From NCBI GenBank assembly GCA_030431475.1, contig JAUIJD010000024.1, positions 1 through 64,000 of the forward strand: a DNA stretch of 64,000 nucleotides, written 5' to 3'. Position 1 is the stretch's first letter. Each line of letters starts with the position of its first letter. A program made the translations under genes and the position numbers. Under the pieces are notes generated by a model. The model worked only from the letters and a program-made list of their open reading frames with translations, made no database searches and was not told where the DNA came from. Source of the stretch: Verrucomicrobiia bacterium (GTDB lineage: Bacteria; Verrucomicrobiota; Verrucomicrobiia; Verrucomicrobiales; Akkermansiaceae). Shown piece by piece: positions 1-3,392 of this stretch.

Positions 1-1
1 C

Positions 2-157
2 AAGCACTGGATCACCAACGCGGCGACCGAAGGTTTCAACAGCCGCATCCAGGCGATCAAGGCCGCAGCGAGGGGATTCAGGAACTTCGAGCATTACCGT
101 ATTCGCATCCTATTCTTCTGCGGCCGCATCACGCTGCGACCCGATCCCACCCACTAA
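2..157 (+). CDS. ISL3-family transposase, C-terminal end (partial)
   Basis: The window opens inside a reading frame whose last 51 residues run to a TAA at 155-157. The segment contains ITNAATEGFNSRIQAIK followed by AARGFRNFEHYRIRI. This is the conserved end of ISL3-type DDE transposases (TN..EG.NS.I...K..ARG.R....R.RI). The rest of the element lies outside the window, so its integrity cannot be judged. The next gene is on the opposite strand and its terminator lies between the two. The family assignment rests on pattern recognition of a short segment. Confidence 0.7.
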   Translation, partial: KHWITNAATEGFNSRIQAIKAAARGFRNFEHYRIRILFFCGRITLRPDPTH

Positions 158-173
158 AACCCCGGAAGAGCCA

Positions 174-206
174 AAAAAAGAAGCGGCCGTCCCGAAGGAC
201 GGCCGC
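174..206 (-). terminator. Intrinsic terminator of the porin gene
   Basis: A perfect 10-bp stem, 183-192 pairing with 197-206, closes a CGAA tetraloop. On the minus strand it is followed by a T run (the A run at 174-180 on the plus strand). It lies about 30 bp past the stop of the minus-strand porin gene, as expected for a rho-independent terminator. Confidence 0.85.
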
Positions 207-235
207 TCGTTGATTGAAGTGTCGGAGAAACCCGA

Positions 236-1027
236 TCAGAAGCCGACCGCGAGGGTCACGCCACCGACGAGGTATTCCTGACCACCGGTGCCGTAAAGGT
301 CGGTCACGAGACCGCCGTCACCATCGGTGTACTTGACGTAGGGGGTCAGGGTCACGCCTTCGCGGAATTCCCACGGAAGAGCGGCCGAGAGGTACCAACC
401 CTGGAAGCCGTCGGCGGTCGAACCGGGAGTCACACCCAGCTTGGACGAACCTTGGCCACCGTGACCGTCGGCGAAGGCGAAGCCCGCACCAAGGTCAAGC
501 GAGAGGCACTCGTTGAACTCGATGCTGTAGCCGATCGAGTTGTCCCAGTACCAACCGTTGAGCTCGTCGAAGTCATAGTACCAGGTCGAACCGAAGGACA
601 GGCCGAACGGAAGCTCGTAGCTGGCACCAAGGTAGATTTCCTGGGTGTTCGAGAAGCCGGCGGCCGTCGAGATGTCCGGGAAGTAGTAGTAGATGTAACC
701 AAGCTCGAGGGTCAGGTCACCAACGCTGTAGCTAGCGGCGGCGTAGAGGTCGAGCTCGTCAGCGTTCGCGCCGAACATGGTGCCACCGGCAGCATTGACG
801 CTGTCGAAGCTGGCGTACCAAGCACCGGCGCTGAGGCCGAAGGCTCCGAAGTCGGCGGCCACGTCAACACCACTCTCAATGAGGTCGTTGCCGAAGTCGA
901 CGAATCGGAATTCGTACATGTTGTGATAGCCGACGTGGACTTCACCTTCAATTTCCGCCGAAGCGTAGCCAGCCACGAGGGTGGAGGCAGCGGCCAGGGC
1001 GCCAACGGTTTTGCTGTAGTTGCGCAT
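236..1027 (-). CDS. Outer-membrane beta-barrel protein, TorF-type putative porin
   Basis: A 263-residue secreted protein. A signal peptide (residues 1-24, cleavage after YASA) precedes EIEGEVHVGYHNMYEFRFVDFG, which resembles the start of the TorF/gcw_chp family of putative porins (S.N..... YRGi..s...). The rest alternates aromatic and polar residues in repeated amphipathic strands (for example LELGYIYYYFPD and ASYELPFGLSFGSTWYYDFDE). It ends in a C-terminal Phe (TLAVGF), typical of barrel proteins inserted by BamA. It is divergent from the ammonium transporter and both genes carry sigma-54 promoters, so a role in uptake of a nitrogenous solute is inferred; the substrate is unknown. A good terminator follows. 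Confidence 0.8.
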   Translation of the reverse strand: MRNYSKTVGALAAASTLVAGYASAEIEGEVHVGYHNMYEFRFVDFGNDLIESGVDVAADFGAFGLSAGAWYASFDSVNAAGGTMFGANADELDLYAAASYSVGDLTLELGYIYYYFPDISTAAGFSNTQEIYLGASYELPFGLSFGSTWYYDFDELNGWYWDNSIGYSIEFNECLSLDLGAGFAFADGHGGQGSSKLGVTPGSTADGFQGWYLSAALPWEFREGVTLTPYVKYTDGDGGLVTDLYGTGGQEYLVGGVTLAVGF

Positions 1028-1104
1028 CGTATTTCGTTGTTCGGTTGCTGCGATTGACCCTCCGAGGACGGCTTGGCCGACTCCGGAAGAGACTTGGTTT
1101 CGTT

Positions 1105-1120
1105 AGCATCGACCGTGCCA
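1105..1120 (-). promoter_or_regulatory. Sigma-54 (-24/-12) promoter of the porin gene
   Basis: Read on the minus strand the site is TGGCACGGTCGATGCT. The GG (1119-1118) and GC (1107-1106) dinucleotides are separated by exactly 10 nt, as RpoN promoters require. There is one deviation from the TGGCACG-N4-TTGC consensus (A for T before TGC). Transcription would begin near 1095, leaving a leader of about 67 nt before the ATG at 1027. Confidence 0.7.
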
Positions 1121-1387
1121 TTTTAGTGGCCGGACACTGCCTAACCGCGGATTCATTAAGAAACCTTGATATTCGTGTCCAGTAAAAAAGCAGGAATGCT
1201 ATCGCTCGCGCGGCAGCCTGATAGTCGCCGGCCGGCCCACGTGCAAGGCATTTCACTGTCCCGATTTCAGACTTCTCTCCCGGCCTTCGCCGCGCCCCTC
1301 GATCCAAGGAGGGTGGAGAAACCGGTGGGATGACGGGGCGCTTGATCCGGCCCCGGGGACTCCATGTGTACGTGACGAAATTCACGG

Positions 1388-1404
1388 TTGGCACGCCGCT
1401 TGCT
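1388..1404 (+). promoter_or_regulatory. Sigma-54 (-24/-12) promoter of the ammonium transporter gene
   Basis: TTGGCACGCCGCTTGCT matches the RpoN consensus (T)TGGCACG-N4-TTGC(A/T) throughout, with GG at 1390-1391 and GC at 1402-1403, 10 nt apart. The expected start site near 1414 lies about 30 nt before the ATG at 1446. An inverted repeat (CGTGA-N6-TCACG, about 1370-1385) sits immediately upstream. The rest of the 418-bp divergent region (1028-1445) holds no gene I can support, and I could not pick out a convincing NtrC site. Confidence 0.85.
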
Positions 1405-1445
1405 TCTCCGCCGCCGAGTTCAACTCCAACAACCGCGAACTAACC

Positions 1446-2816
1446 ATGCGAATGCTAAAGAAACTGATGTTCCTCACCCCCCTCGCGCTCGTGGCACCCG
1501 CCATGGCGCAAGAGGATGAGTACCGACCCGACTACGACGCCCTGATCGAAAGCCAGGGTGATTACGCCTACGCCTTCGACTTCTTCACCACCTCCATGCT
1601 GTGGACGGTGATCGCGGCGGCCTTGGTCTTCATCATGCACCTTGGCTTCGCCACTCTCGAAGCCGGCCTCACCCAGAAAAAGAACACGGTCAACATCCTG
1701 TTCAAGAACTGCTTCATCATCGCGATCGGTGTCGTCACCTACGCGCTGGTCGGCTTCAACACCCACTACCCCGGCGACTTCAACGGCTGGTTCAGCCTCG
1801 GCGGGATGATTGGTGACCTCAACGCCGACGGCGGTGACACCTTCGGTTACGGCGGCCTCGGTCTCGCCATGACCGGCTACGGTGATTTCATCTTCCAGGC
1901 GATGTTCGCGGCCACCGCCGCCACGATTGTTTCGGGTGCGGTCGCCGAGCGCGTCAAGCTCCCGACCTTCATGATCTTCGCCACCATCCTCGTCGGATTC
2001 TGGTATCCGGTCGTCGGCTCCTGGCACTGGGGCGGTGGCTGGCTCGGCGGTCTCAACGGCGGCAACGGCTTCAAGGACTTCGCCGGCTCGGCCGTGGTTC
2101 ACGCCTTCGGTGGCTTCGCCGCCCTCGCCTGCGTGCTCGTTCTGGGTCCCCGCCGCGGCAAGTACACCGCGGAAGGCGTCAAGCCCATCCTCCCGCACAA
2201 CCTCCCGCTCGCGGCGATCGGTGTGTTCCTCCTGTTCTTCGGCTGGTTCGGCTTCAACGGCGGTTCCGTCCTCTCGGCCGCTCCGGGTCCGCTCGGCCTG
2301 GTCTTCACGACCACCACGCTGGCGGCCTGCACCGGTGCCCTCGGCGCCATGGCCACTTCCTGGGTCACCCTCAAGAAGCCTGACCTGTCGATGACCCTCA
2401 ACGGCTTCCTCGCCGGTCTCGTCGGGATCACCGCCAACGCCGACATCGTGTCCGCCACCGGCGCCCTCGTCATCGGCCTGATCGCCGGCATCATCGTGGT
2501 GCTTTCGGTCCTGTTCTTCGACAAGATCAAGATCGACGACCCGGTCGGCGCGATCTCCGTCCACGGCATCTGCGGCATCTGGGGCATCCTGGCTGCGGCG
2601 CTCTTCGAGGTCGTTCCGGAAGGTGCCGAGAAGCAGTTCTCGATCGGGGGCCAGCTGCTCGGCGTGGTCGCCGTCGGCGCCGCCGCCTTCATCTTCTCCT
2701 TCGTGGTGTTCTTCATCCTGAAGCTCATCATGGGAGTCCGCGTGAGCGAAGAAGAGGAGCACGAAGGTCTCGACGTGGCCGAGCACGGTGTCCCGGCCTA
2801 CACCGACCACCAGTAA
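1446..2816 (+). CDS. amt: Ammonium transporter, Amt family
   Basis: A 456-residue inner-membrane channel for ammonium. A cleavable-looking signal sequence (residues 1-21, ending VAPAMA) is followed by about eleven hydrophobic helices. Family landmarks are FATLEAGLTQKKN, the region AATIVSGAVAERVK, WHWGGGWL, and FFGWFGFNGGS. The twin pore histidines appear as His219 (SAVVHAFGG) and His373 (ISVHGICGIWG). The C-terminal tail is acidic. No glnB/glnK gene is next to it here, although amt is often paired with one. A near-perfect sigma-54 promoter indicates nitrogen-limitation control, shared with the divergent porin, and a strong terminator follows. Confidence 0.95.
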   Translation: MRMLKKLMFLTPLALVAPAMAQEDEYRPDYDALIESQGDYAYAFDFFTTSMLWTVIAAALVFIMHLGFATLEAGLTQKKNTVNILFKNCFIIAIGVVTYALVGFNTHYPGDFNGWFSLGGMIGDLNADGGDTFGYGGLGLAMTGYGDFIFQAMFAATAATIVSGAVAERVKLPTFMIFATILVGFWYPVVGSWHWGGGWLGGLNGGNGFKDFAGSAVVHAFGGFAALACVLVLGPRRGKYTAEGVKPILPHNLPLAAIGVFLLFFGWFGFNGGSVLSAAPGPLGLVFTTTTLAACTGALGAMATSWVTLKKPDLSMTLNGFLAGLVGITANADIVSATGALVIGLIAGIIVVLSVLFFDKIKIDDPVGAISVHGICGIWGILAAALFEVVPEGAEKQFSIGGQLLGVVAVGAAAFIFSFVVFFILKLIMGVRVSEEEEHEGLDVAEHGVPAYTDHQ

Positions 2817-2840
2817 GATTCCTCGAATCCCACTCTCACA

Positions 2841-2875
2841 GCAGGCGGCCCGCACGGGCCGCCTGCTTCTTTTTT
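2841..2875 (+). terminator. Intrinsic terminator after amt
   Basis: An 11-bp GC-rich stem (2841-2851 with 2856-2866) with a GCAC loop is followed by TTCTTTTTT. It lies 25 bp after the amt stop codon, on the same strand. Confidence 0.9.
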
Positions 2876-2909
2876 GCGATGGCACCGCGGGCCCGCCTCG
2901 CCTAAGCGG

Positions 2910-3392
2910 ATGTCCGTGACGCGTCGCCGCAAGATTCTCCTCGGCCTCCTCATCCCCACCCTCCTGCTGGCGGTCTGGCAGTGGTTTTTCCGTCCGTATG
3001 CCTGGCGACCCGACCCGGACGCCGCCTGCCGCATCGAATTCGCCCAGCTGCGGCGCGACCGGGATTACCACTGGCTCGATCTCCGGCTCGAGGTCACCGA
3101 GCCGGGGCGCTTCCGCATCGACGAGAACCTCGCCCTGCTCACCGCCTCCGCCCGGGAGATCAAGCCCGCCGGCCTCACCTTGGAAGGCGCGGGGTCAGCC
3201 GATCTCGACCCGGGTGCCCCCGCCCTGGCCGCCACCGAGGCGCTGGCCCTCCGATTCTGGATGGAGCCGGGCGATTTCGACGGTCCTCTCCAGCTCCGGA
3301 TCAACGGCGCTTCGCTCCACGTCCGCAGGGGATCCGAAGCACCTTCCCTCGAGGATGGCGAAACCGAAATCCACCGCACCTGCCGCTGGTGA
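2910..3392 (+). CDS. Hypothetical membrane-anchored protein
   Basis: A 160-residue protein of unknown function. It has a basic N-terminus (MSVTRRRK), one hydrophobic segment (about residues 9-26, LLGLLIPTLLLAVWQWFF) and a soluble, probably periplasmic, beta-rich remainder. The start at 2910 is preferred over an in-frame codon at 2874, which would fall inside the amt terminator's T tract. The stop TGA overlaps the ATG of coaX by one base, so the two are translationally coupled. I recognise no domain. Confidence 0.6.
   Translation: MSVTRRRKILLGLLIPTLLLAVWQWFFRPYAWRPDPDAACRIEFAQLRRDRDYHWLDLRLEVTEPGRFRIDENLALLTASAREIKPAGLTLEGAGSADLDPGAPALAATEALALRFWMEPGDFDGPLQLRINGASLHVRRGSEAPSLEDGETEIHRTCRW

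Follow-up and report, generated by a model that had tools for sequence, protein, structure and literature searches.

Gene organization of the locus

The window, i.e. the whole 64,000-nucleotide stretch of DNA analyzed here, comes from a Haloferula-like bacterium and shares its first base with a contig of 65,607 bases. Near its start, a porin gene and the ammonium transporter gene amt1 lie divergently on either side of a 418-bp intergenic gap, and each gene is preceded by a -24/-12 site for sigma-54 (RpoN). The features of the locus are as follows:

181..208, minus strand: terminator-like hairpin 3' of the porin gene; 12 pairs, run of 7 T
236..1027, minus strand: porin gene; 263 aa, signal peptide (by eye), C-terminal Phe, remote relative of the TorF/Gcw_chp family
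1106..1120, minus strand: sigma-54 -24/-12 site of the porin, TGGCACGGTCGATGC; one mismatch, exact GG-N10-GC
1132..1189, minus strand: conserved block, approximately CTGGACA-N12-TTTCTTAA in the porin direction, from the alignment of genus loci
1389..1403, plus strand: sigma-54 -24/-12 site of amt, TGGCACGCCGCTTGC; no mismatch, exact GG-N10-GC
1446..2816, plus strand: ammonium transporter gene amt1; 456 aa, matches to PF00909 and TIGR00836
2840..2867, plus strand: terminator-like hairpin 3' of amt; 12 pairs, run of 6 T

The sequence-only reading of this DNA had described the same divergent gene order, as well as two GG-N10-GC sites on opposite strands. Both descriptions hold, with a shift of at most one base in the coordinates of the sites. 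Amt1 is a member of the ammonium transporter family, as shown by its matches to PF00909 (E = 2.6e-111; 372.6 bits, cut-off 23.2) and TIGR00836 (380.6 bits, above the cut-off of 343.3). Judging from the site spacing, transcription is predicted to start at about 1095 on the minus strand and about 1414 on the plus strand, which would give leaders of about 68 nt and 32 nt for the porin and amt, respectively.

Terminator-like hairpins of the minimum kind accepted by the tool were found three times in positions 1-3000, compared to 3.1 expected by chance. Since this count is at the chance level, the position and the stem length carry the weight, and the 12-pair hairpin with a T run behind each gene suggests that the porin and amt are probably each transcribed alone. 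No Rfam match was found around the gap. The C-terminal end of an ISL3-type transposase (positions 2-157, plus strand; PF01610, E = 3e-12) sits at the contig edge, just past the porin terminator.

Frequency of the sites in the window and the genome

The sites were scored against TGGCAC-N5-TTGC, which we take to be the sigma-54 consensus. In the 64-kb window, one site with no mismatch and one site with a single mismatch contain the GG-N10-GC core, and these are the two gap sites; the numbers expected from first-order Markov resamplings of the whole window are 0.08 and 1.9, respectively. When the 418-bp gap itself was resampled 20,000 times, sites with at most one mismatch on both strands appeared at a frequency of 0.0001.

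Genome-wide, one-mismatch sites are not enriched (178, compared to 291 for the reversed pattern), and a lone match therefore carries little weight and proves nothing. The weight of the gap sites rests on their position and conservation. The tighter pattern TGGCACRNNNNWTGC occurs nine times in 4.73 Mb, compared to two occurrences of the control, and two of the nine are the gap sites.

Sigma-54 factor and its activators

The lack of an rpoN gene had been named beforehand as a ground for rejecting the proposed RpoN control. An intact rpoN gene with all three sigma-54 domains (PF04552, PF04963, and PF00309) is present in the genome. PF00158, searched for as the mark of the activators, yielded 12 matches, of which three are strong, one is weaker, and eight are weak. 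Among the four PF00158 proteins inspected, the GAFTGA motif is carried by the three strong ones, and the weaker fourth is without it.

All four activators scanned fall short of the cut-off of the NtrC equivalog model TIGR01818 (558.6 bits), the best of them scoring 428.8 bits. The most NtrC-like activator, encoded on contig C93, has a counterpart with 72-86% identity in each of the other 17 genomes of the genus, which is split in two pieces in one of them (G015). Its gene adjoins a prepilin-like gene. About 2.6 kb from the activator gene, another gene, pilin-like, is preceded at 71 bp by an exact sigma-54 site (L036, G000:C93:14145), which is perhaps part of a pilin branch of the sigma-54 regulon. 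In the genome G022, both glnK and the porin are preceded by sites, and a clear orthologue of this activator was not found. In six upstream regions, no match to an NtrC-type dyad of the proteobacterial consensus beat the resamplings.

Conservation of the two sites within the genus

The porin and amt are divergent neighbors in 14 of the 18 genomes of the genus; in the other four, the genes are apart (G003 and G015) or the contig ends (G004 and G005). The amt-side site is found in all 14 genomes with neighboring genes, with at most one mismatch in 13 and with two mismatches in one. At six loci (L011, L012, L014, L015, L016, and L018), the neighboring Amt is only about 28-33% identical to that of the window and nearer to the genome's other amt type, and the amt-side site is still there.

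On the porin side, a site with at most one mismatch is present in 6 of 17 genus loci, whereas it is degenerate or absent in the remaining 11. The six loci with an intact site are all six rows of the window's clade in the porin tree (support 100/99). These 11 loci count against a universal link between the porin and nitrogen.

A five-way alignment of the gap shows both sigma-54 sites as conserved stretches. The block at 1132-1189 was found, with small changes, in all 16 aligned genus loci, even where the sigma-54 site of the porin is lost. No sigma-70 match was found in this block or around the gap, and the block was not found before porins outside the genus. The block may serve the porin as an additional promoter or as an activator site.

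Conservation beyond the genus and a three-gene form

A scan of named genomes yielded 37 loci, some of them within the window's genus. In 34 of these (L091, L100, and L101 were dropped because their upstream DNA was missing), a sense site with at most one mismatch was sought in the 250 bp that precede the first aligned residue. Such a site lies before the porin at 23 of the 34 loci, six times as an exact match, compared to 1.8% of 11,764 control stretches, although some of the 23 are doubtful, such as those of L103 (at -234) and L110.

In 10 of the 37 named loci (L095, L096, L098, L102, L104, L107, L109, L111, L113, and L116), amt1 and a second transporter gene, amt2, are divergent and the porin gene lies behind amt2; L104 and L116 are near-copies of each other (94% over 1.6 kb). 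The sites of amt1 and of the porin have at most one mismatch in all ten loci, and that of amt2 in eight, with two mismatches in the other two. In the eight loci with amt2 sites of at most one mismatch, the amt1 and amt2 sites are 53-55 bp apart. A CGCGCGCG tract is seen 26-29 bp past the first base of the amt2 site in eight of the ten loci (L095, L096, L098, L102, L104, L107, L111, and L116). L118 (Persicirhabdus) resembles the window, with amt1 and the porin divergent and both sites present. Intact sites on both sides are also seen in Haloferula rosea KCTC 22201 and H. luteola YC6886 (L083 and L084). Conversely, L106 is a counter-example, where the divergent pair is without a porin site and the amt site has two mismatches.

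In the porin tree of 36 rows, the presence of the site is explained by four changes, compared to a mean of 10.9 after shuffling, and none of 500 shuffles was as low. Nine loci (L003, L005-L007, L009-L011, L013, and L018) are represented in the tree by named copies. The tree left out L019-L031, L091, L098, L100, L101, L114-L117, and L119; among these, L098 and L116 have an upstream site, and L114, L115, L117, and L119 are without one. Ten genus rows lacking the porin site form one clade (98/91). L087 (Luteolibacter marinus) is also without the site, yet it falls outside this clade, so that more than one loss within the genus is needed if the site is old.

These distributions suggest that the porin site is probably old and was lost in part of the genus, and that the three-site cluster of amt1, amt2, and the porin would be the old form, from which the window's lineage would have lost amt2 at this locus. 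The root of the tree serves for drawing only, and the direction of these changes is therefore what we infer rather than what the tree gives. In G019, a genome of the same family that is 99% complete and has rpoN, no match was found for the porin, PII, or an ammonium transporter.

Other members of the candidate regulon

The main PII gene (glnK) was surveyed at 30 PII loci, with all genus genomes covered except G009. In all 17 genus genomes fetched, a -24/-12 site is located at -41 to -45 of glnK, and it has at most one mismatch in 16 of them. Over the whole set, 21 of the 30 loci have such a site with at most one mismatch; eight of the nine misses are outside the genus, where 5 of 13 loci have it. 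In genus loci such as L076, L132, and L134, the -24 element of glnK is directly preceded by a conserved A/T-rich tract like GTTTTAAAAAATT.

The sequence-only reading had called for a search for further sites before transport genes. The first base of another exact tight site lies 30 bp before the start of a gene for an AGCS-family amino-acid carrier, whereas the genome's second amt has no such sigma-54 site. The targets of the nine tight sites were read by eye from the ORF layouts, which left L032, L078, L080, L081, and L082 with no assigned target. At L077 (G000:C17:74410-74682), a second, divergent PII gene adjoins a gene of the Sbt_1 bicarbonate transporter family, and these two genes presumably resemble the SbtA/SbtB pair.

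The placement of amt and glnK under sigma-54 is the classic nitrogen pattern, and nitrogen limitation is therefore the most likely signal.

Family, fold, and charge of the porin

The window porin had been called TorF-like, and this description applies remotely, through its homologues. By itself, the protein matches neither TIGR02001 nor PF09694, whereas 18 of 34 aligned porin sequences match TIGR02001 at E <= 0.01 (best 5.4e-15; judged by E-value, not by the curated cut-off). In a smaller set of homologues, 10 of 22 match TIGR02001 and 5 of 22 match PF09694, each at E <= 0.1. A PorP_SprF assignment of the window porin was rejected, the match (E = 0.01) being below the family cut-off. When the porin profile was run against the sequences of PDB chains, nothing matched at E values up to 1.

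The hallmarks of an outer-membrane porin are present, namely the signal peptide, read by eye, a barrel in the structural model, and an aromatic residue at the C terminus, which is Phe in 32 of the 34 aligned porin stretches. The AlphaFold2 model is a confident barrel with 13 strand elements, one of them short (mean pLDDT 84.8, pTM 0.81). The best structural matches by Z-score include the KdgM, NanC, and VhGalP porins. The top match is KdgM (4pr7; Z = 17.2, rmsd 2.3 over 170 residues, 14% identity), and NanC (2wjq) follows with Z = 16.3, rmsd 3.1 over 191 residues, and 8% identity, whereas Foldseek ranks OmpG first. Because KdgM is tied with autotransporter and FapF barrels, the predicted fold suggests a porin-like barrel and no more.

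After removal of the first 25 residues, the window porin has 32 acidic and 4 basic residues and a net charge of -28, whereas KdgM/NanC-type porins carry acidic sugars. The net charge of the 34 aligned porins ranges from -7 to -40, with L099, L103, and L105 at only -7 to -9. The charge of the window porin is compatible with a cationic solute or a cation path, but surface proteins of marine organisms may be acidic anyway.

Proposed regulation and its alternatives

Judged from sequence, sigma-54 control of both the porin and amt is strongly supported. The RpoN dependence that had been proposed for both genes is supported by the intact rpoN, the GAFTGA-carrying activators, the conserved sites, and the glnK site found throughout the genus genomes fetched, and a regulon shared by the porin and amt is likewise well supported. 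As for the proposed link to nitrogen limitation, the candidate targets amt and glnK are nitrogen genes and make this signal likely, whereas no NtrC-type dyad was found in the six upstream regions and none of the four scanned activators reached the NtrC cut-off.

The reading that we favor, with good though not full confidence, is that two back-to-back sigma-54 promoters respond to an NtrC-type activator upon nitrogen shortage and serve uptake by Amt1 and the porin, in a lineage that lost amt2 here. RNA polymerase with RpoN would sit in a closed complex at both -24/-12 elements, and an NtrC-type AAA+ activator, acting from a putative site, would open both promoters when nitrogen is short. The porin and amt would each form a transcription unit of their own, ended by a separate terminator. 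Amt1 would carry ammonium across the inner membrane, and the small, strongly acidic beta-barrel porin would make the outer membrane more permeable to ammonium or to some other nitrogen compound that is small and probably cationic.

Three other explanations have to be weighed against this one. That GC-rich DNA produced both sites by chance is very improbable: one-mismatch sites are indeed common genome-wide, whereas the rarity of sites on both strands of the resampled gap and the conservation of the sites argue against it, and a chance origin was rejected on the basis of the gap resampling and the excess of porin-side sites in the upstream scan. A stronger, though still improbable, alternative is that both promoters depend on sigma-54 and answer another signal (carbon, envelope, oxygen, or amino acids) through another activator, without a nitrogen regulon. 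The activators, which are not clear NtrC orthologues, the missing NtrC box, and the prepilin-like and pilin-like genes near the most NtrC-like activator would all fit such a signal. Set against these observations, the genes seen here whose sites are best conserved are amt and glnK, the classic nitrogen targets, and one more of the nine tight sites precedes a gene for an AGCS-family amino-acid carrier.

A third explanation, to which we assign a similarly low probability, holds that the porin is driven mainly from a promoter in or near the block at 1132-1189, that its -24/-12 site is a fading relic, and that amt alone is under nitrogen control. The block is conserved throughout the genus, including loci without the porin site, and the porin site itself has one mismatch in the window and is degenerate or absent in most genus loci. 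The site is, however, intact in every row of the window's clade and in most named loci outside the genus, and the block is without a sigma-70 match.

As the pattern is kept in many relatives, the porin probably has a part in scavenging ammonium or some other small compound of nitrogen, and our best guess for its solute is ammonium or a small amine. A narrower version, in which the porin of the Verrucomicrobiota would be regulated by nitrogen, select for cations, and form a two-membrane uptake pair with Amt, as an outer-membrane channel dedicated to the entry of ammonium or small amines, is rather improbable. Ammonium is usually thought to pass general porins. The porin remains next to an ammonium transporter, with sigma-54 sites, including at loci whose transporter belongs to a different Amt subfamily, suggesting that the outer-membrane step may be worth regulating. 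Together, amt1, amt2, the porin, and glnK constitute a concrete candidate nitrogen regulon for the Verrucomicrobiota and provide a lead on the role of a hitherto uncharacterized porin family.

Comparison with known systems

The proteobacterial glnK-amtB regulon of sigma-54 and NtrC shares with the present set the placement of amt and glnK behind -24/-12 sites. Unlike in that regulon, amt and glnK are unlinked here, a porin is in the set, and NtrC is unassigned. Genes like nlmA, which lie beside glnK-amtB, presumably belong to the Gcw_chp/TorF family. A TorF gene linked to glnK-amt in Proteobacteria was sought among 60 of 136 matching plasmid records with an ammonium transporter. None is annotated in four of these records, whose tables are incomplete, and none was seen by eye among ORFs of at least about 100 aa in two unannotated records, in one of which the ORFs were covered from about 1.6 kb before glnK. 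Among the titles listed on TorF/Gcw_chp, NlmA, Verrucomicrobia, and Akkermansiaceae nitrogen genes, no description of the porin/amt arrangement with sigma-54 sites was found.

According to the passages available, nlmA-glnK-amtB of Herbaspirillum seropedicae is raised under nitrogen limitation in an NtrC-dependent manner, and NlmA is most probably periplasmic (PMC3023670). In H. seropedicae, these three genes form one operon, whereas here the porin and amt diverge, each with its own site, and glnK lies at another locus.

A further parallel is the porin BCAL3473 of Burkholderia cenocepacia, which, in the passages available, is raised by nitrogen depletion from a promoter with -12 and -24 sigma-54 elements, is repressed by a small RNA, and is raised in an ntrC deletion mutant, and whose loss leaves ammonium use unaffected (PMC10117139). 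BCAL3473 resembles the window porin in being an outer-membrane porin with sigma-54 elements in its promoter; unlike the window porin, it is not paired with an ammonium transporter in those passages (PMC10117139). The Burkholderia porin supports the general idea of a nitrogen-regulated porin, which this precedent makes less new but more plausible, and speaks for amines rather than ammonium as the solute.
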